DNA from: an uncultured Clostridia bacterium
Lineage (GTDB): Bacteria; Bacillota; Clostridia; Christensenellales; Borkfalkiaceae
Assembly (NCBI GenBank): GCA_947632195.1
Contig: CANROE010000002.1
Span: 62,001 to 126,000, forward strand
DNA length: 64,000 nt
Direction: 5' to 3'
The translations under genes were made by a program, and so were the position numbers. Under the pieces are notes generated by a model. The model made no database searches. It saw nothing but the letters and a program-made list of their open reading frames with translations, and was not told the origin of the DNA. Positions within the stretch are counted from its first letter, which is position 1, and every line of letters starts with the position of its first letter. Positions 7,699 to 30,573 of the stretch are shown piece after piece.

Positions 7699-8440
7699 GT
7701 ATTTTCAAAGTTTGCAGAAAACCCGGCACACGCTCACGCCAAGATTTTTCATTGTGCTGTCCGTGCGGGATCAAGCGAAAATCAAACGGAACGTTCTTTT
7801 CGAGCAGAGCGCCGATGCAGCGTTCAAGCCCACGGCATTGCGCCCCGCCGTGGCTTTTTAGTTCTTCCGTGCCGTAGTCAATATAAAGAGCGACGTCGTC
7901 CGTCCACTCTGCGGCTTTTATCATCCTTCCGACTTTCTCTGGCGCGACCCAAAAACTCGGAGAAAGCGCCGCGCCGCCTCCGAACACAGCCGAATAGCGG
8001 CAAAGTGCAAACATCGTCATCAGCCCGCCCATAGAGCTTCCCGCAAGAAAGGTATGTTCCCTTTCGGGAAGCGTCCGATAGGTTGCATCAATCATCGGCT
8101 TGAACGTACCGACAAGCCAATCCATATATGCCTCGCCCTTGCCCTCAGACGAACCATATTTGGACTGAAACGGGAAAGGCGAATATTCCGTCAGACGATC
8201 TTCCCTGTCCGCTTCCACGGCTGCGACAATAATCTCGGCTTTGAACTTGTCAAGAATCTCCCCCATGCGCCAACTGTCACCGTATGGCGCGGTGTCATCG
8301 ACAAAGGCGGTTTGTCCGTCAAACATATACAAAACGGGGAAACGCTTTTTCTCGTCGTAGGCTTTGGGAAGATACACATACACCTTTCTTGTCTGTTCCC
8401 CGCTTGGCGCGGGAATGGTGATGTCAAATTGGTTGATCAT
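7682..8440 (-). CDS. Alpha/beta-hydrolase, enterochelin-esterase-like (Fes/esterase D type)
   Basis: GSSMGG nucleophile elbow, VLYMFDGQTAFVDD, conserved C-terminal HGQHNEKSWRE. Confidence 0.85.
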   Translation of the reverse strand: MINQFDITIPAPSGEQTRKVYVYLPKAYDEKKRFPVLYMFDGQTAFVDDTAPYGDSWRMGEILDKFKAEIIVAAVEADREDRLTEYSPFPFQSKYGSSEGKGEAYMDWLVGTFKPMIDATYRTLPEREHTFLAGSSMGGLMTMFALCRYSAVFGGGAALSPSFWVAPEKVGRMIKAAEWTDDVALYIDYGTEELKSHGGAQCRGLERCIGALLEKNVPFDFRLIPHGQHNEKSWRERVPGFLQTLKIQKGRP

Positions 8441-8474
8441 AATTCCCTCTTTGCAATTTACATAGGTTACTTCT

Positions 8475-8511
8475 GCAAAAAAGCCGACAGCAAAACTGCT
8501 ATCGGCTTTTT
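8475..8511 (-). terminator. Intrinsic terminator of tRNA-like unit
   Basis: AAAAGCCGATAGCA-GTTT-TGCTGTCGGCTTTTTT immediately after CCA. Confidence 0.85.
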
Positions 8512-8512
8512 G

Positions 8513-8806
8513 TGGCTGCTCCTGTCAGACTCGAACTGACGACACCGCGGTTACTTCACTACATCGCTTTCGCCTTGTAGTCCGGACTTTGTCTTTCCCA
8601 TGAGCTTTCGCTTTTAGGGATCCCGTGTAAAGTCTCTACACACGAATCCTTGCGGATCCTTGCTCGGCGTTGTCTTATCTTGCGACTTAGATTTCACCGA
8701 ATTAGCGGGATTTGTCATCTGCGGGTTTCCCCGCAGAGCTGCTATTCCTACTCTTGTTAAGTAGGCTTTACAGCCGCGTGCTCTCCCAAGCGTACAGGTT
8801 TACAGT
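8513..8806 (-). tRNA. tRNA-Asn(GTT)-like gene split by an intron; 5' acceptor strand and D-loop degenerate
   Basis: Spliced reading GAGAGCA-CGCGG-CTGTTAA-CCGCG-GTGTC-GTCAG-TTCGAGT-CTGAC-AGGAGCA-G-CCA: intact anticodon arm, T-arm and encoded CCA; no 5' match to AGGAGCA and D-loop is only 4 nt. Confidence 0.6.
8554..8769 (-). ncRNA. Group I intron (~216 nt) inserted in the tRNA anticodon loop between U35 and U36
   Basis: 5' exon ends in T, intron ends in G; core GTGTAGAGACTTTACACGGGATCCC...AAAGACAAAGTCC with P7 GACTTT/AAAGTC; P5-like GCGGGGAAACCCGC; resembles the cyanobacterial tRNA-Leu group I intron core from memory. Confidence 0.8.
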
Positions 8807-8872: not shown

Positions 8873-9937
8873 TTAGGGCGCGATGCGATTTTGGAGAAAA
8901 TTGTCGCAATACCTACAGGTTACGCCGCAAATCTCATCATCGCAACTATGGCTTGCTTCCGAAAACCAAAAATCTGCCATCCCGTCTAGCTCCTTATTAC
9001 CTATTGTTTTCGCCGCGCCCTTCATGTACCATAGACTTGATACATCACCATCGAAATCAAATGTCATGTAAGCTTTAAGTACCCTTAGAATATCTTCTGT
9101 GCTAGCAGTTCTCCCCGTGATTTTGAATTTACAAATGCCAACTCCAGCGTATCTCGGAATATCTTCGGGCCTAATAAAGCGCAGTTTGCACCAAAATGAA
9201 CTTTTACACCCATTTCTATTCACCATGCATATATTTTGGGGATAACCACCCATAAGATCTTCTTCATTACACGTTGCATTTTCTGAATGGCATATAAAGC
9301 AGCTCTCGCGGAATATACACGGTGACATGCCTTCTCCATACAAAAATCCGAGCCCGCATAGTTCATTTACAATAAGTTCGAGGTCGCAATTGTTAGCACT
9401 TATATTTTTTTGTATTCGTATCAATCGACCTATTTCTCTGTTAAAGTACGGCGATAGGCAAAATGAGTGTACGCCGTATAATTGTCTGTAGGTTTCGATT
9501 TGATTTGCGGAAAAAATGTTCGCGATTGAGCTAAGGGTTATTTCCATCTCTGAATTTTTTTTAACAATTTCCGCCAAAAGCGGATGTGTGACTATCACGC
9601 CATCAACAGCAGCATCCTCAAGCCGGCGAACAAAATCAATAATGTCAGACTCCTTCTCTGCTAAGCTAGCTTTACTCCCTATGTATGGTGCATTTAGAGC
9701 GTAATAAAACTTGATATTTTCTGTGTGAAGCTGTTTGATGTGGCTTTCTATTTCCCTCAGTGATACTTCGGGAAGTCTATATTTAGGTCTTGCGGTAAGC
9801 CAATCAAATTCTGACGACGAGGCGTAAACGCTCTTTATTTTTGCAAAATCCGAAAGCGCATTGAGGCGTCTGATTGCACCAATGAGGCGCGAATCGAAAT
9901 TATATCCAACCTTATATTCAACTTTTCCCTGTCCCAT
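8873..9937 (-). CDS. U32-family (peptidase U32/UbiU-UbiV/RlhA-like) Fe-S protein
   Basis: Start MGQGKVEYK overlaps upstream stop; ITLSSIANIFSANQIETYRQLYGVHSFCLSPYFN..., Cys cluster CIFRESCFICHS...C, YAGVGICKFKITGRTASTEDILRVLKAYM. Confidence 0.75.
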   Translation of the reverse strand: MGQGKVEYKVGYNFDSRLIGAIRRLNALSDFAKIKSVYASSSEFDWLTARPKYRLPEVSLREIESHIKQLHTENIKFYYALNAPYIGSKASLAEKESDIIDFVRRLEDAAVDGVIVTHPLLAEIVKKNSEMEITLSSIANIFSANQIETYRQLYGVHSFCLSPYFNREIGRLIRIQKNISANNCDLELIVNELCGLGFLYGEGMSPCIFRESCFICHSENATCNEEDLMGGYPQNICMVNRNGCKSSFWCKLRFIRPEDIPRYAGVGICKFKITGRTASTEDILRVLKAYMTFDFDGDVSSLWYMKGAAKTIGNKELDGMADFWFSEASHSCDDEICGVTCRYCDNFLQNRIAP

Positions 9938-10737
9938 CACAGCTCCACTAAGTCTGCAAATCCCCCTCTGCTCCAAAGCCACATAGGGGTATGTATATCT
10001 ATGGGCGCAAATTCGCTGCCTCTGAGTGTTTCTCTCCACGCCTCTGCGACCTCTCTTTGCACATTGGTAGCATTCATGTCGTGTATCAAACCGAGTTTAT
10101 ATGATGATTGTATGACATGGGTATCAGGCGCAACCGAGATATTCTCCCTGTCGCGTAGCGGCAAGTCTGCGTACTGGGTTAAGACATAAAGCCAATAATT
10201 CGCGATTTTGTTACCACTCAAGTATGGATAGTTTTTCTTGTGCTTTAATTGTATCTCTTGAAGAATTTTTGTTACGGTATAGTCACATCTCTCAAACAAA
10301 TTGCTCAATTCCCCTCCGAGTTCGTTAACAATCGTTGTACATAATCTAATCCAAATTTCTGTGTGCTTATTGGGTTGGATTGCCACTTTATATTTTGTTA
10401 AGGCCGCTCGTAGCTCCTCTGTATTACAGCAGAGAACATCGTTTGGAGAAAAGATGAACCTAGTAGCCGCGTCGTTAAATGAGGCTAAAGCACCTTCCCA
10501 AAGTTTATACGAATTTCTCTGATAGTTGAGCGCCATCGGAAGTGTAAGATAAAGTAAATTTTCTTCTGAGTTGCGTTGCAAATGCGGATTGCTATCTTCT
10601 GGCATGAATTCCCCGCCCAGCAACCCTGCTTTCCACATCTTATATAACTTTCTGACATTATTTAGAGCTTCTGCTCCATCATAGACTTTGCTGTCTGCGC
10701 CGGCTTGATCGAACAAGCTTGTTTGCATTACGGGCAT
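9937..10737 (-). CDS. Helix-hairpin-helix (HhH-GPD glycosylase-fold-like) protein, possible base-modification enzyme
   Basis: LSGNKIANYWLYVLTQYADLPLRDRENISVAPDTHVIQSSYKLGL resembles the HhH-GPD 'K.A...vDtHv.R...RLGL' region; C-terminal APIDIHTPMWLWSRGGF. Confidence 0.5.
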   Translation of the reverse strand: MPVMQTSLFDQAGADSKVYDGAEALNNVRKLYKMWKAGLLGGEFMPEDSNPHLQRNSEENLLYLTLPMALNYQRNSYKLWEGALASFNDAATRFIFSPNDVLCCNTEELRAALTKYKVAIQPNKHTEIWIRLCTTIVNELGGELSNLFERCDYTVTKILQEIQLKHKKNYPYLSGNKIANYWLYVLTQYADLPLRDRENISVAPDTHVIQSSYKLGLIHDMNATNVQREVAEAWRETLRGSEFAPIDIHTPMWLWSRGGFADLVEL

Positions 10738-10740
10738 ATT

Positions 10741-11943
10741 TCAATACTCCTTTTTTAGTACATAGCACTCAACTATGCAAAGATCCTTTTCGTCTACCCC
10801 ATGTTTCTTTGCCGGTGTAACAATTTCCTTTGAGATATGGCTATGATAATCTATTCCAAGCTTTCCCTTTTCATATCTTTCAATAACGAACCCCAGCCTT
10901 CTTCCCAATATCTCAATCTGCTCTTTAGGATATGTGAATGAATAAACCTCATTCACGTTGCCAGAACTCCCGATAAATTTCGTCTTTATCGCACCTCCCC
11001 TGTTTAGTTGACACCATTCATGACTTGGAAGCGAAACCACCAATCTCCCGTCTCGCCTTAAAATCCTTAATAGCGAGGCAATTGCCTCTGGGTAGAAATA
11101 CGGGTCGCACAGGGATGCAAATATGACATCAAATTCTTCATCGTGCCCACGGAATTGTCTAATTCCGACATGATCCTGCTCAGCCCCAGCATTCATTTTT
11201 TCAGCGATATCAATCGATGGAATATTTTTCTTCGAGAGAGAATTCAGCCACCCATTTCCACTCCCGACTTCTAACAAGGCATCTTCACTCGTGCATTTTC
11301 TTAGTTCATCTTCAAAGAAGGAGGCGCTCGCATCGTGAAAATTTGCCGTAGTCACCCTCTTCGCGTCATAGAACTCTCCAGCAATTTGCTCATAGCCTGC
11401 TTTGTTAACTCTATCTATTTCATCACTCTGTGGCAAGTGTAGCTCTCGCTGAAGTTTGGTGGCTTGTATCATTCTTGATAGATTGCAAATTTGCGAATCA
11501 ATTGCATCGTCTGCGTTATTTGAAACCATGATATCTATGGGTGTATCAGAGGAACTATAATCTTCGGCCCGACCACGATCATCGCGAAAATCGCCACTTA
11601 GAATTTGCACGATAATCAGGTCATGACAGTATTTCCTGATTTTCTCCACATTGCTCGGATGAATTTCTTTTACAACATCTATTCCGCTTTGAGAAAAAAC
11701 AGACGCCTCCATGGCGTATTTATATCCATAGGCCTCATCTATGTATAAAATCCGACCATCATGTAGAAGCCCTCGAATTTGTTCGTCAGATACAAATTCA
11801 TACTCGTCAGATTCGTTTTTTCGTTTGGGACGTGTCGTATATGATTTAGCCCGCAAATACAAATGGGGGAACTTTTGAATCAACGCATTTATAATTGTTG
11901 TTTTTCCGCTTCCACTGGGACCAATTACGGCAATAAAGCTCAT
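10741..11943 (-). CDS. Guanylate-kinase-like P-loop kinase fused to class I SAM methyltransferase
   Basis: N-term GPSGSGKTTIINAL, SYTTRPKRKNESDEYEFVSDEQI; C-term LLEVGSGNGWL and DVIFASLCDPYFYPEAIASLLRILRRDGRLVVSLP. Confidence 0.8.
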   Translation of the reverse strand: MSFIAVIGPSGSGKTTIINALIQKFPHLYLRAKSYTTRPKRKNESDEYEFVSDEQIRGLLHDGRILYIDEAYGYKYAMEASVFSQSGIDVVKEIHPSNVEKIRKYCHDLIIVQILSGDFRDDRGRAEDYSSSDTPIDIMVSNNADDAIDSQICNLSRMIQATKLQRELHLPQSDEIDRVNKAGYEQIAGEFYDAKRVTTANFHDASASFFEDELRKCTSEDALLEVGSGNGWLNSLSKKNIPSIDIAEKMNAGAEQDHVGIRQFRGHDEEFDVIFASLCDPYFYPEAIASLLRILRRDGRLVVSLPSHEWCQLNRGGAIKTKFIGSSGNVNEVYSFTYPKEQIEILGRRLGFVIERYEKGKLGIDYHSHISKEIVTPAKKHGVDEKDLCIVECYVLKKEY

Positions 11944-11951
11944 ACTCCCTC

Positions 11952-12656
11952 CTAATGTCTAACAAAGTAAATGTTACTTTTTGTATCGCAAAAGCACTCG
12001 CCGCAATCTAAGCAATTTTTCCCGTTGGAATATTGCTCGGGACAGTTAAACATATCATCTCGGCGATGGTCATCGCCAACGATACAAAATCGCCATCCTG
12101 CTGGTGGCACCTCATTCCTTTCTAATGACGCAATCAATTGAATATTAGATTTTGCGCGAAGCCGTTCCATGTCTCGAAGCAGTTTTGGAACACGCCATGA
12201 TCTTGTATAACCCCAAAACAACGCTGATGGATTTAGGTCTACCACGCTCTCCCACAAACCTATGTAATTACTAGAAAAGAAATCGCCTGATGAGTGAATT
12301 CTAACGACGGGGTTCATAGTTCTTCCTATTTGTTCGCATAGCCTATAAATTAACTCCTCTTGTTTCTGCACCGCCCAATAGAGATTACAGCACCAACGCT
12401 CAATCGGGAAAACATCTATGCGCGTGTCCGCGTTATAACAATAATTTAGGCATTCAGAGGCGCCAGGACACGTAATAACGGGGGGCAAATTCCATACCAA
12501 AGCCGTTTGATTTTTGTCATTTTTTATGCCAGTTTTCTTGTTCCCTCCTTCCAATCCGTAATATTCTCCCTCGATCGGGAGCAAATCGCGGTAGCTTTCT
12601 AAAATCGCTCTCCGCGTTTTCAATTGCCTTTGCGTGGGTATAGTTCTCCTAAGCAT
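11952..12656 (-). CDS. GP88-like (phage 'gene product 88' family) protein, Cys-rich C-terminus
   Basis: TCPGASECLNYCYNADTR, RIHSSGDFFSSNYIGLW, FWGYTRSWRVP, NCLDCGECF; GGGAGGATGACATG ribosome site. Confidence 0.75.
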   Translation of the reverse strand: MLRRTIPTQRQLKTRRAILESYRDLLPIEGEYYGLEGGNKKTGIKNDKNQTALVWNLPPVITCPGASECLNYCYNADTRIDVFPIERWCCNLYWAVQKQEELIYRLCEQIGRTMNPVVRIHSSGDFFSSNYIGLWESVVDLNPSALFWGYTRSWRVPKLLRDMERLRAKSNIQLIASLERNEVPPAGWRFCIVGDDHRRDDMFNCPEQYSNGKNCLDCGECFCDTKSNIYFVRH

Positions 12657-12724: not shown

Positions 12725-12755
12725 AAAATCCGATAGTTTAACACTATCGGATTTT
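12725..12755 (-). terminator. Leader hairpin/attenuator of the GP88 operon
   Basis: Perfect 12-bp stem AAAATCCGATAG-N7-CTATCGGATTTT plus a further T on the minus strand, only a few nt after the predicted transcription start. Confidence 0.65.
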
Positions 12756-12769
12756 CCATTTTCTATGTT

Positions 12770-12798
12770 ACTATAACACATTAGGGTACAATTGTCAA
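12770..12798 (-). promoter_or_regulatory. Promoter of the four-gene GP88/GMK-MTase/HhH/U32 operon
   Basis: TTGACA-N17-TATAGT on the minus strand. Confidence 0.8.
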
Positions 12799-13274: not shown

Positions 13275-14840
13275 TCAGAAATCGCTAATCAAATCAAGAT
13301 AGGGTTTCTTGATTAAAACGTTTATACGGTATAGTTTGCCAATTTCTATTCTTTCGAGAAGATCACATATTATCATCTTCTTCCGCTCTCGCGTCGCGCT
13401 ATCAAATTCTTCGGCGAAACCGAGGAATTGCTCGTAACGCGCATCGAGATTCTTCAATGTGTCTTGCTCGGCGTTGACGGCTTTCAGCGTTTCCGGAATT
13501 AGCCGCTCGAGCTGCGCAATTTTCTCTCTGTGAACAACTAAGGATTGATTGATGTCCTCTAATGACAACCGAGATTTTCCAATCATTGCCAAGCCAATCT
13601 CATTATGAAGCCTTTGAATGATAAGCCCAAGTTCTTCATGCTCTTTAAGGAGCCGATTATAGTCTGCTCTTTTTTGGCGGAGCGCCTCTTTGTAGCTCCG
13701 CTCGAGAGCATCAGTTCTTACGCTACCCTTGATCTTGTCAAGCAAGTCGTGAACGACAGCAAGCACCGCCTCGTCGATCCGCGTAGACGTGTATTCCGTC
13801 AAACCATCGCACGGTCCCCTACGTCGTGCCCGATTGGGACAGACGTATTTGATTTGATGATATACCTTTTCCGTCCCATCTGCCAACGTTCGCTTTGCGG
13901 AATAAGTGCAAGCATGCAATCTCGCCCCGCAGTGAGCGCAATAAATATTCCCGCCGAGGAGCGCTGCACCCCTTGTAGTATATGCTATGTTCGATTTTCT
14001 TGCATTCACTACGTTCCGAGCTTCCAAAATCTTTTGTGCTTGCGCAAACATATCTTCACTGATAATTTGGAGGCCCTCTATGAGTTCAGACCGCTTCCCG
14101 CCGCGCACATAGTGTCCCGTATAAACCTCATTTCGTAAGATACGGTTAATCGTATTGGATTGGAACCTCGCCCCATTGTGTGTTCTGAACCCCTGTTCGT
14201 TGATAAGATTACAGAGCCTCCATGTGCCATAACCCTCGTTTACGGTCTTTTGAAATATGTATTGTACCACGGCGGCCTCTTCGGGAATGATTTCAAGTGC
14301 GACAAGTTCCCGCCCCTTCTTTGTGATAGTCCCGCTCTTCACGAACCGATAACCGAAGGCCGCTGCCCCGCCCGTAAATTTCCCCTCTTCCACAAGCTGT
14401 CCGAGGCGTGTCTTGACGCGGAGAGAAGTTTTTCTGCTCTCGCCGCCCGCTTGCCAAAACCTTATGTAGTTCAGAAGGTAATCGCAGTCGTTTTCAAAGG
14501 TCTGCTGTCCCTCTTTTGTACTCCAAACTTGGATGCCGCTCTTTACGAACCATTCAAGGACAAAAGGTGTTTCGTTGGGAATACGCCCCAATCGGTCAAA
14601 CATGAACACAAGCAGAATATCAAACTCTTTCTTCTCTGCCGCCGCCCTCAAATCTTGTATAGCATCGCGGTCGTTTGCCGAGATCTTGAAACCGGATACA
14701 CCCTTCTCAAGGAACTCCTTACAAATCGTCCACCCCATTTTCTCCGCAAACACATGACAGGCTTTCCGCTGCATGGGGATGTCGTCCTCGTCCACTTGTC
14801 CTTTGGTCGAAACGCGATATAAGCAATACACCCTTTCCAT
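13275..14840 (-). CDS. Large serine recombinase/integrase (TndX/TnpX type)
   Basis: N-term CLYRVSTKGQVDEDDIPMQRKACHVFAEKMGW, resolvase motifs, recombinase domain, zinc ribbon CAHCGARL...CPNRARRRGPCDG, C-terminal coiled coil. Confidence 0.92.
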   Translation of the reverse strand: MERVYCLYRVSTKGQVDEDDIPMQRKACHVFAEKMGWTICKEFLEKGVSGFKISANDRDAIQDLRAAAEKKEFDILLVFMFDRLGRIPNETPFVLEWFVKSGIQVWSTKEGQQTFENDCDYLLNYIRFWQAGGESRKTSLRVKTRLGQLVEEGKFTGGAAAFGYRFVKSGTITKKGRELVALEIIPEEAAVVQYIFQKTVNEGYGTWRLCNLINEQGFRTHNGARFQSNTINRILRNEVYTGHYVRGGKRSELIEGLQIISEDMFAQAQKILEARNVVNARKSNIAYTTRGAALLGGNIYCAHCGARLHACTYSAKRTLADGTEKVYHQIKYVCPNRARRRGPCDGLTEYTSTRIDEAVLAVVHDLLDKIKGSVRTDALERSYKEALRQKRADYNRLLKEHEELGLIIQRLHNEIGLAMIGKSRLSLEDINQSLVVHREKIAQLERLIPETLKAVNAEQDTLKNLDARYEQFLGFAEEFDSATRERKKMIICDLLERIEIGKLYRINVLIKKPYLDLISDF

Positions 14841-25949: not shown

Positions 25950-27260
25950 TCAATTTTTATAGTCCTCCCGATTTTTTCTTTCCCGCTCCTCCCGCTCGCG
26001 GGCAATCTCCTCCTCGATCTCTTCCAACCGATGAGAAAAAACCCTTCCCTGTTCCTCACATTCTTTTCCGAACGTCAGAAAAAACTTTTTGCAAGCGGCG
26101 TTGACATTCCTGCGGGAAATACCGAGTAGCTTTTTCAGACGGACGTCGTTTGCATTGTATATCTTCTTCCCTTCATACAGCTTCGGCTTGATATACTTCG
26201 CAAGGTTCAAGACAAGATTCCCTTGCCGCCGCCGGTAGTCCTCCTCGATCTGCTCGATCACATGGATGTCTTCCTCGTCGATCTTCCCTTGAAACCTTTT
26301 TGGGTCGTTCTCCATCTTCTCCATGCTCACGTTCTTTTGCGAATAGACGGAGGGGTTGCTGCAAATTTGTTCCATGGCACGTTTGCGTTGCTCGAGGGCG
26401 ATCCAAAACTTTTTGTCCGCTTGCCGCGCCCGCCTGTCATATCGGAGCAGCATTTGGACGATCCTGTCCACTCTGTCGCGGTAAGGCTTCATGTTCTCGC
26501 TTCCGTAAGAAAGCCGCCCGTCCTTCGGCAAGTCCTTTGCAAGGGCTATGATCGCTTCGCGGATCTCCTGCGTTGTGTTCATGGCTTTGCTTGGGCGCAG
26601 CATCTCTTTCAAATCTTTGACCGCCTCCGTCCGCGATTTATAGAGTTTGCCTCTGCGGTCGTCCAGATATAACTCCATGCGAACAAACATATTGTCGATC
26701 GCTTTCTTGTCGATCTGCGCATAGCGGCGAAAAGTGAGTGTTCCGTCTTTGCTCTTGTATTTCGGCTCTTTCTCCCAAAATACGAAGTGGATATGTAAGT
26801 GCGACTTGTCCTTATGAAGCGCGCACATGAGGTCGATGTTGTCCTTGTGGAACCGCGCGTCCCGAAAGAAGTTCGGGAAAGTGCGCTTGATAAACTCAAT
26901 GCACTTTTCGGGCGTTTCGATCTTGTAGGAATCTTCCTCTGCGAGCGAGATGAAACCGTGGTAGATATTCCCCTTGTTCGCTTTCAGCCGCGCCTTCATT
27001 TCGGAAACTTCCTGTTCGGGGATCATGCCCTTGTCGTTGAACACGCCCGTGTTCTTTTGCAGATACTCGAACATCGACTTGAAGAGTGACTTCCCCGTGC
27101 GCTTCCCCTCGGTATTCATGTACTCGTAGATATTCTTCCCGCCCGTCATGTCGTAGAAAGAACGCTTCTCCGCATGAGCCTCCCGCTCCACGCTCGTCGC
27201 CGATCTCGGAAGGGAGTAAGGCGTATATTGGATATTGAAGATAACGGGTTGGCTGCTCAT
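25950..27260 (-). CDS. MobP-type relaxase
   Basis: ALHKDKSHLHIHFVFWEKEP histidine motif; adjacent to coupling protein. Confidence 0.85.
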   Translation of the reverse strand: MSSQPVIFNIQYTPYSLPRSATSVEREAHAEKRSFYDMTGGKNIYEYMNTEGKRTGKSLFKSMFEYLQKNTGVFNDKGMIPEQEVSEMKARLKANKGNIYHGFISLAEEDSYKIETPEKCIEFIKRTFPNFFRDARFHKDNIDLMCALHKDKSHLHIHFVFWEKEPKYKSKDGTLTFRRYAQIDKKAIDNMFVRMELYLDDRRGKLYKSRTEAVKDLKEMLRPSKAMNTTQEIREAIIALAKDLPKDGRLSYGSENMKPYRDRVDRIVQMLLRYDRRARQADKKFWIALEQRKRAMEQICSNPSVYSQKNVSMEKMENDPKRFQGKIDEEDIHVIEQIEEDYRRRQGNLVLNLAKYIKPKLYEGKKIYNANDVRLKKLLGISRRNVNAACKKFFLTFGKECEEQGRVFSHRLEEIEEEIAREREERERKNREDYKN

Positions 27261-29097: not shown

Positions 29098-30573
29098 TCA
29101 CGATTTGGAATTGGCAAAGCGGCCTTTCCGTCTTTCGCCCGCAGCGTCCGCAGCTCTGCGTCTCTCGCCCGCCCGCTCCACAAACTGCATGGCTTCCTGC
29201 GCGAGCTTCTCATAGTAGGCGTTGGGTTTTTCGTCCCTGTATTGCCCCGACGCTTTGAACACGCGCATAAGTTGTTCTTTGTCTTTGGTGAAAACGGCGA
29301 TCTGACACATCAATGAACGCTCGTTGCTCTCCTCGCTTCCGAGCAGGGAGATCCCGTTGAAAAGCTGATCGAACTTCGTTCCGCTCCTTGACTTTTTCGC
29401 CCTTTCCACGATTTCTCTGTCCCCCATCCGTGCAAGGCTCTCCACGCCTCTGCCGCTCATATCCACGCCGCTTCTTGTCTGCGGCAAGGCTTTTGCCGCA
29501 ACTTCGCTCGGCTTGATATACACGGCGGAGGGCCGCATCTGCACTTCATCAAGATTGACTGTCTCCATATCCTCTCCTTCCTTTTGTTCCCCCTCGGTCA
29601 TGATCTGCTCTTTTGCAAGAAGAAAGTCCACGATCTTTTCCGCGTCGGCGATCGCCGTAAACAGCGCGTTAGGGTCGTTTTTGAGCTGACTATGCCACCA
29701 TTGGATATACGCAGCATTATTGTTCACGCGCTTTGGATCTGCCTCGATGCTAAACTCTTGCATGAGAAACATGGACGCAATTTCAGCCCGCAATTCTTCC
29801 TGCGCATATTCGGGTGTTCCCCTCGCCCCCATGACGCGGTTGAGCCGCTTTTCGTTTCCCGTGGAATGCCCTATCTCATGGAAATTCGTCCCGTAAAACT
29901 CCTGCAAAGAAATGAACCTACTTCGTTGCGGCGAGACGATATAATCATGTTTATGGTTGTAAAACGCTTGATTCCCGCCATAAAAGGTGGGACACTCCGT
30001 TTTGCTCCAAAAATCCAAAAAACGCTCTACCCGCTCGGAATATCCGCTCGGATCCATCTCGGGCTTTTCAAGCGCGGGGATACCGTCTATAATGTCCCCG
30101 TTAAAGACGCGATAATACTTCCGCACGGGATAGATGTTTTCGTCCATGTACTTTTGCTTCTCTTCTTCGGTCATGCCGAGCAAAGATAGTTTACTGAACG
30201 GCTCTTTGGTGTTCCTGTCCCGAAGTTCAAAGTACTCGATCGTAACGCCGGCGTTCTTGCCGAGGGTTTTCCCCTCGGCATCCCGCTTGAACTCCCAACC
30301 TTTGTCTACCATCTGCTTGTAGGTGAGCCAACGGTTATCGGTGTATCCTCTTGCCATACTCACATAGGTCAGAAGAAAGTTGTTGTTCCCTCGGTACTTT
30401 TTGCCGGTGATCGCAGACTGCGGTCTGCCCGTTGAGATCCAACCCTGCTCCCATATCCCCTTGCCGCTTTCGAGCCGCTTCAACACTTCGTCCACGATGA
30501 GTTTGCGCTGAGGCGTGAGCTTCTCGTAAACGGAGTCATGCTCCGCGGTTTCGATCATCTTCTCCTCTCTCAA
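29098..30573 (-). CDS. ArdC-like antirestriction/zincin protein
   Basis: GKYRGNNNFLLTYVSMARGYTDNRWLTYKQ and HEIGH metallopeptidase motif (FHEIGHSTGNEKRLNR). Confidence 0.85.
   Translation of the reverse strand: MREEKMIETAEHDSVYEKLTPQRKLIVDEVLKRLESGKGIWEQGWISTGRPQSAITGKKYRGNNNFLLTYVSMARGYTDNRWLTYKQMVDKGWEFKRDAEGKTLGKNAGVTIEYFELRDRNTKEPFSKLSLLGMTEEEKQKYMDENIYPVRKYYRVFNGDIIDGIPALEKPEMDPSGYSERVERFLDFWSKTECPTFYGGNQAFYNHKHDYIVSPQRSRFISLQEFYGTNFHEIGHSTGNEKRLNRVMGARGTPEYAQEELRAEIASMFLMQEFSIEADPKRVNNNAAYIQWWHSQLKNDPNALFTAIADAEKIVDFLLAKEQIMTEGEQKEGEDMETVNLDEVQMRPSAVYIKPSEVAAKALPQTRSGVDMSGRGVESLARMGDREIVERAKKSRSGTKFDQLFNGISLLGSEESNERSLMCQIAVFTKDKEQLMRVFKASGQYRDEKPNAYYEKLAQEAMQFVERAGERRRAADAAGERRKGRFANSKS

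Follow-up and report, generated by a model that had tools for sequence, protein, structure and literature searches.

A conserved four-gene operon of an uncultured Clostridia bacterium, tentatively linked to oxygen-independent synthesis of a C5-oxygenated pyrimidine nucleotide

What is made by an operon that joins a GP88-family protein, a kinase-methyltransferase fusion, a DNA-glycosylase-fold protein and a U32-family protein? The question is raised by four adjacent genes in a 64,000-nucleotide stretch of DNA from an uncultured Clostridia bacterium (GenBank assembly GCA_947632195.1, contig CANROE010000002.1, positions 62,001 to 126,000). We call this whole stretch the window and number it from its first letter. 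The operon and its upstream signals are:

12770-12798, minus strand: sigma-70-type promoter TTGACA-17-TATAGT with extended TG, matching 11 of 12 consensus positions (sequence inspection)
12725-12755, strand-neutral: 13-bp palindrome with a 5-nt loop, just downstream of the operon promoter and before the GP88 gene
11952-12656, minus strand: GP88-family protein (PF17338), 234 aa, first gene of the operon
10741-11943, minus strand: guanylate-kinase-like P-loop kinase (about residues 1-150) fused to a class I S-adenosylmethionine (SAM) methyltransferase (about residues 210-400), 400 aa
9937-10737, minus strand: protein with the HhH-GPD (DNA glycosylase) fold, 266 aa
8873-9937, minus strand: predicted U32-family iron-sulfur (Fe-S) oxidase of the PHROG 5757 subfamily, 354 aa, last gene

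We tentatively propose, with somewhat less than even confidence, that these genes form an accessory pathway, probably independent of oxygen, whose product is a C5-oxygenated nucleotide of a pyrimidine, most likely cytosine. The proposal is supported by the following observations: the operon is conserved in a second genome, its U32 protein has kin in 5-hydroxycytosine phages, a related cassette carries a thymidylate synthase (TS) homologue, the kinase has lost its guanine contacts, the HhH protein resembles the glycosylase Qng1, and the host makes chorismate. The substrates, the sequence of steps, the product and a part played in conflicts with phages or other mobile elements are our inference.

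The open reading frames (ORFs) all lie on the minus strand, from 12656 to 8873. An earlier reading of this DNA, made from the letters without database searches (the sequence-only reading), had described four co-directional genes behind a single strong promoter. Inspection agrees: GP88 and kinase-methyltransferase genes are 8 nt apart, kinase-methyltransferase and HhH genes 3 nt apart, as had been claimed, and the promoter reads from 12798 to 12770. The 'ATGA overlap' reported between the last two genes is in fact TGATG, in which the HhH stop codon TGA overlaps the U32 ATG (9937) by 1 nt. A mechanical ORF list starts U32 at a GTG at 10039; this is probably not its start, and ATG at 9937 is preferred. 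The palindrome is presumably an operator or a hairpin of the 5' untranslated region. The family labels hold as well, through profile matches to PF17338, Guanylate_kin and Peptidase_U32 and, for the HhH protein, through its predicted structure.

The four genes are a real conserved unit, more than chance neighbours, because a second genome keeps them all in the same order. A scan of a genome collection with the 266-aa HhH protein as query gave 39 relatives. One of them, L089, lies in a distant Clostridia metagenome-assembled genome (MAG; RGIG8724) that has all four genes in identical order, overlapping or near-touching, at 36% (GP88), 37% (kinase-methyltransferase), 51% (HhH) and 37% (U32) identity to those of the window. 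It had been stated beforehand that lack of co-occurrence elsewhere would speak against a common system; L089 has the four families together. The cargo of mobile elements is often mixed and two complete operons are known, so four unrelated cargo genes might simply lie side by side; the kept order and tight spacing at such identities make this highly improbable.

A partial relative, L083, was found in a Cyanobacteria MAG (UBA11371). Its gene order is kinase-methyltransferase fusion, radical SAM protein (PF04055, E=4e-12), TS homologue (PF00303, E=1.5e-21), HhH protein and Ham1-family protein. The fusion is about 35% and the HhH protein 51% identical to those of the window. The difference is that L083 has the radical SAM and TS genes where the window has GP88 and U32, and a Ham1 gene downstream. 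The sequence-only reading had linked the operon to modification of nucleic acids or nucleotides, and the TS homologue of this related cassette agrees with that link.

The system is rare, since sampled surveys of 300 genomes of the host phylum, 294 of the L083 phylum and 218 of the L089 order found no further kinase-methyltransferase fusion beyond the known loci; the three surveys otherwise gave only partial matches of guanylate-kinase size. In the 36 congeneric genomes searched, neither the HhH gene nor the GP88 gene was found. The U32 gene occurs in T4-like phages; sequence searches of phages gave no member of the HhH family and no fusion. The sequence-only reading knew of no described system with such a combination; we likewise found the four-family combination as a conserved operon neither in the literature searched nor in PADLOC. 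The component families are already known, and what appears to be new is their combination as a conserved operon.

What chemistry would the operon perform? The U32 protein matches Peptidase_U32 (PF01136, E=3e-11) and, as a full-length match, PHROG 5757 (E=3e-58, over 41-384); the L089 copy matches the latter at E=5.5e-101. By tblastn the window protein matches 218 phage records, full-length and at 33-35% identity, the matches listed being from T4-like phages. Identity between the L089 copy and the U32 protein of phage HX01 is 45%. E187 and eight cysteines (194, 207, 213, 237, 332, 337, 341 and 344) are common to the window, L089 and phage proteins. Scanning viral contigs with a U32 alignment returned T4-like phage contigs only; no match was obtained in scans with a single U32 sequence, the HhH protein or the kinase-methyltransferase fusion. 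In T4-like phages, the U32 gene sits between DNA polymerase/arabinose-precursor genes and a TS-like gene, and the latter is close to U32 at each of the 15 phage loci checked. The nearest family thus lies within a 5-hydroxycytosine DNA-modification cluster, which supports the earlier suggestion that U32 is tied to modification chemistry.

RB69/NP-type phages (Mosigvirus) make 5-hydroxy-dCMP at the mononucleotide stage, and its synthesis has been assigned to the TS homologue (PMC13390438). The RB69 'peptidase' RB69p050 was listed in an earlier survey among presumed modification genes (PMC8056088). A recent paper on one such modified phage states that there is no valid hypothesis for attachment of the hydroxyl (PMC12838424). 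The arabinosyl-5-hydroxycytosine system of Mosigvirus phages RB69, NP and HX01 and of related Straboviridae resembles the window operon in its PHROG 5757 U32 protein (about 35-45% identical) and in having a nucleotide kinase; the resemblance through a dCMP-type TS homologue concerns L083 only. By contrast, the window operon lacks the TS homologue, arabinose-precursor genes and glycosyltransferase, has a methyltransferase, an HhH-GPD protein and GP88 in addition, and is cellular.

The window protein shares the Peptidase_U32 domain and the conserved Glu and Cys with the U32 oxidases RlhA, TrhP and UbiU/UbiV, so that O2-independent hydroxylation would be expected of it. It differs from them in belonging to another subfamily, in which the C-terminus carries an extra motif of four Cys and the spacing of the cysteines is changed: the four cysteines after the conserved Glu are at 194, 207, 213 and 237, unlike the C-x6-C-x15-C-x3-C of RlhA/TrhP/UbiUV. 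RlhA and TrhP, the U32 enzymes with known nucleic-acid substrates, act on RNA (PMC6599085), which raises the alternative that U32 hydroxylates tRNA or rRNA, the methyltransferase makes the methoxy derivative and the other two genes are ancillary. Hydroxylation followed by methylation is indeed the route to 5-methoxyuridine (mo5U). We consider this improbable, because the window protein falls in the subfamily of DNA-modifying phages and not with RlhA/TrhP, and because the methyltransferase is fused to a nucleoside-monophosphate kinase, which argues for a small substrate.

U32-dependent formation of 5-hydroxyuridine (ho5U) and 5-hydroxycytidine (ho5C) in RNA needs prephenate (PMC6599085; review PMC11574389), the product of chorismate mutase. 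Because of this requirement, the PHROG 5757 subfamily would, by analogy, be prephenate-dependent too; in the literature we found no report of a test of this in the phage subfamily. The host genome has a chorismate synthase, and the host makes chorismate. In Proteus phage Pm5461, a chorismate mutase gene (L026:5402-5788) lies one small ORF from U32 and adjoins the TS homologue, in a region of arabinosyl-hydroxycytosine type, which suggests that this phage supplies prephenate for U32 chemistry.

U32 proteins were also met in other surroundings. On a Bacillus wiedmannii plasmid (L024:7989-15150), one lies beside 4-amino-4-deoxychorismate mutase, pabA/pabB-type and ATP-grasp-type genes; this is possibly a natural-product locus, in which U32 might use amino-prephenate. 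At L040:64-3364, a radical SAM-like protein, a U32 protein and a short repetitive peptide rich in Asn, Tyr and Trp are encoded consecutively, a row that resembles a locus for a peptide natural product, here including a U32 enzyme. L041-L044 hold U32 copies similar to that of L040.

The kinase-methyltransferase fusion informs on the substrate. It matches Guanylate_kin (E=1e-11) and, weakly, methyltransferase profiles; against TIGR03263 it scores 52 bits, for a cut-off of 160 bits. The window, L089 and L083 proteins keep the P-loop of guanylate kinase and its phosphate-binding Arg and Tyr. The positions of Glu, Ser/Thr and Asp, which we take from yeast guanylate kinase to be the guanine-contact residues, are altered in all three (E to Y/N/T, GT to AM/GM, D to H). 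With these contacts lost, the substrate is probably a nucleoside monophosphate other than GMP. It is no ordinary guanylate kinase, in line with the activating role that the sequence-only reading gave it. The TS homologue of L083 has an Asp where thymidylate synthases have Asn, at the base-contact site; phage 5-hydroxy-dCMP synthases have the same Asp, which points to cytosine.

Searches of Pfam, PHROG, NCBIfam and PADLOC gave no match to the HhH protein, and neither did PDB sequence searches with the protein and with its profile. An AlphaFold model built from a 17-sequence alignment reached pLDDT 87.8 and pTM 0.82 (a single-sequence run only pLDDT 35). Its top PDB match is the queuosine-5'-monophosphate glycosylase Qng1/DUF2419 (E about 1e-4, TM 0.55-0.60), followed by the HhH-GPD DNA glycosylases Ogg, Mig, MutY and Nth. 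K177 and D205 (in an APDTH motif) are invariant in the family and equivalent to the K and D of HhH-GPD glycosylases. The protein has a glycosylase fold according to this model. An unrelated fold had been named as a ground for giving up the earlier reading; the model and its PDB matches are of HhH-GPD type. Qng1, the closest solved structure, acts on a nucleotide monophosphate; identity to it is 10-14% and DUF2419 is not detected in the window protein by sequence.

The same model bears on a rival scheme, post-synthetic DNA hypermodification. There, U32 would hydroxylate a DNA pyrimidine, the kinase activate it, the HhH protein, like phage amino acid:DNA transferases, replace the leaving group and the methyltransferase finish the base, so that host or element DNA is marked. 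The model weakly matches an 'Amino acid:DNA transferase' of Mycobacterium phage LilMcDreamy (TM 0.51, E 0.11). Its best viral match is an HhH protein of halovirus HGTV-1 annotated as 'endonuclease III' (TM 0.75/0.83), whose gene is three genes away from a Mom-like gene for DNA modification; the HGTV-1 regions examined have no annotated U32 or Gmk-like fusion. The kinship of U32 with DNA-modifying phages and the location in mobile-element cargo would also suit this scheme. We nevertheless find it unlikely: the resemblance to the transferase is weak, the kinase belongs to the Gmk (nucleoside-monophosphate) type and is not a DNA-base kinase, the operon has no DNA-targeting domain or restriction partner, and the HhH family is not seen in phages by sequence. 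Phage thymine hypermodification likewise places a P-loop kinase, there a hydroxymethyl-dU DNA kinase, next to a glycosylase-fold protein, a pyrophosphorylase/transferase. In the window, by contrast, the kinase is Gmk-like, the HhH protein is closer to Qng1 and DNA glycosylases, and no hydroxymethyl-dUMP synthase is present. A transferase role of the HhH protein in the style of thymine hypermodification is not supported, as its nearest structure is a nucleotide N-glycosylase and its stand-alone relatives lie beside nucleotide house-cleaning genes.

At 16 of 33 loci with an intact HhH gene, a Nudix, Ham1, UDG-like or DUF4406 gene is found within 2 kb, about threefold the density further out in the same loci (a simple count, uncorrected for relatedness). 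These neighbours fit a role in handling non-canonical nucleotides or bases, and the protein may make, remove or police the product of the pathway. They would also suit a toxic antiviral nucleotide, made in a viperin-type manner by the other three genes with the chemistry proposed above, and cleared from the host by the HhH protein as DNA glycosylase or nucleotide hydrolase. Ham1 in L083, the invariant glycosylase K and D, and the lack of HhH and GP88 genes in the congeners searched are in line with this. PADLOC, however, gives only generic P-loop and methyltransferase partial matches on the fusion protein, and the radical SAM protein of L083 gives a viperin-like signal that falls far short of the cut-off; an antiviral nucleotide of this kind seems quite unlikely.

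Nucleoside antibiotic synthesis offers another comparison. The MilA/MilB route starts with a CMP hydroxymethylase and a nucleotide hydrolase. In a small natural-product pathway of this sort, the HhH protein would act as N-glycosidase and release the base of the modified nucleotide. The TS homologue, HhH protein, methyltransferase and radical SAM protein of L083 resemble such an enzyme kit, the nearest solved fold is a nucleotide N-glycosylase, and other U32 proteins occur in biosynthetic-type clusters. With only four genes, no exporter, ligase or resistance gene, and a place on a mobile element and not in a biosynthetic island, we regard it as decidedly unlikely.

Stand-alone members of the HhH family are represented by L070-L103; they have no Pfam or NCBIfam name, are about 46-59% identical to the window protein and come mostly from Clostridia. 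A distant relative (24%) on a Halalkalicoccus plasmid (L131:6851-7681) lies beside a DUF429 gene and near DUF3883 genes.

GP88 matches PF17338 at E=3e-19. It has seven invariant cysteines in two groups (C63, C69, C73 and C205, C215, C218, C221) and the motifs RxHxSGDF, FWGYTRSW and ASxxxS-like. PF04055 is not matched, and the spacing of the first group is C-x5-C-x3-C, not the CxxxCxxC of radical SAM enzymes. GP88 positionally replaces the radical SAM gene of L083, and it is a possible Fe-S or radical-type enzyme. PDB sequence searches with the GP88 protein and with the U32 profile returned no match. In two viral contigs with GP88 (L045 and L046), the stretches examined have no copy of the remaining three operon genes.

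How would the four proteins work together? In the nucleotide pathway that we propose, U32 would hydroxylate a pyrimidine (d)NMP at C5, probably drawing the oxygen from prephenate, and the guanylate-kinase-like domain would phosphorylate the unusual monophosphate. The fused methyltransferase would cap the product, for example from 5-hydroxy to 5-O-methyl, much as TrmR acts after hydroxylation of tRNA uridine. The HhH protein would act on the N-glycosidic bond of the product, by base release, removal from DNA or exchange of a group. GP88 might add a further Fe-S/radical step. The tRNA wobble mo5U pathway (ho5U, then TrmR) follows the same logic of C5 hydroxylation and SAM-dependent methylation; it differs in acting on tRNA and in having no kinase or HhH protein. 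Of the modification scheme put forward in the sequence-only reading, the families, their co-occurrence, the fold and the phage kinship of U32 are supported.

Several points weigh against the proposed pathway. No TS homologue of the L083 type was found in the genome of the window or that of L089, so U32 would need to hydroxylate alone. We found no report of hydroxylation by a phage U32 protein, and published work gives hydroxylation to the TS homologue. In the host genome (about 90% complete), no CM_2-type chorismate mutase was found. The known copies are only two complete operons and one partial relative, all in MAGs, and the step given to GP88 is a guess. A bolder version, which we think unlikely, is a mobile, cellular and O2-independent pathway to a new C5-oxygenated (for example methoxy) cytosine nucleotide directed against phages or rival elements. 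In it the glycosylase-fold partner would guard host DNA, and the pathway would have a U32 branch and a cyanobacterial branch with TS and radical SAM proteins.

If a C5-hydroxylated pyrimidine nucleotide is indeed made, the operon would be, to our knowledge, the first cellular counterpart of the phage 5-hydroxycytosine pathway. A free nucleotide would become a substrate for U32 oxidases, and Qng1 would be joined in nucleotide metabolism by another protein with a DNA-glycosylase fold. In phages, the neighbours of the U32 gene (5-hydroxy-dCMP synthase and, in one case, a chorismate mutase) also make a testable case for prephenate-dependent U32 chemistry in the synthesis of viral 5-hydroxycytosine.

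Two features mark the surroundings of the operon:

13275-14840, minus strand: large serine recombinase of the neighbouring mobile element, with Resolvase, Recombinase and Zn_ribbon domains
8440-8787 (region 8440-8800), minus strand: tRNA-Asn(GUU), 5'-truncated, with a group I intron, at the far-side boundary of the operon

The adjacent serine recombinase noticed earlier is confirmed, and it adjoins TnpV, TraG/VirB4-type, type IV secretion system coupling, MobL relaxase and ArdC genes. The tRNA copy in the window lacks its first 17 nt; its identity was given by ARAGORN on intact copies, and its intron of about 215 nt matches Rfam RF00028 at 28.4 bits, below the gathering score. On the same contig and strand, an intact intron-bearing tRNA-Asn is found at a distance of 73 kb (C2:143558-143848). 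In congener G035, an intact intron-bearing tRNA is followed by the same downstream DNA as in the window. The truncated and intact copies would fit insertion of an element at the tRNA, but the DNA between them also holds galactose-metabolism-like genes, by ORF reading.

The intron-bearing tRNA-Asn(GUU) is present in two copies in this genome and also in G035, with further coordinates L058:18558-18848 and L059:214-504, and is intron-less in congener G023. In the conjugative module, an ArdC-type antirestriction protein (ArdcN and metallopeptidase) is encoded at 29098-30573 of the window, near the MobL relaxase at 25950-27260. Beside the intact intron-bearing tRNA-Asn of L058, at a contig end, L058:13847-18102 encodes a SIR2-like protein and a protein of 1005 aa that matches no Pfam family, possibly a defence pair.

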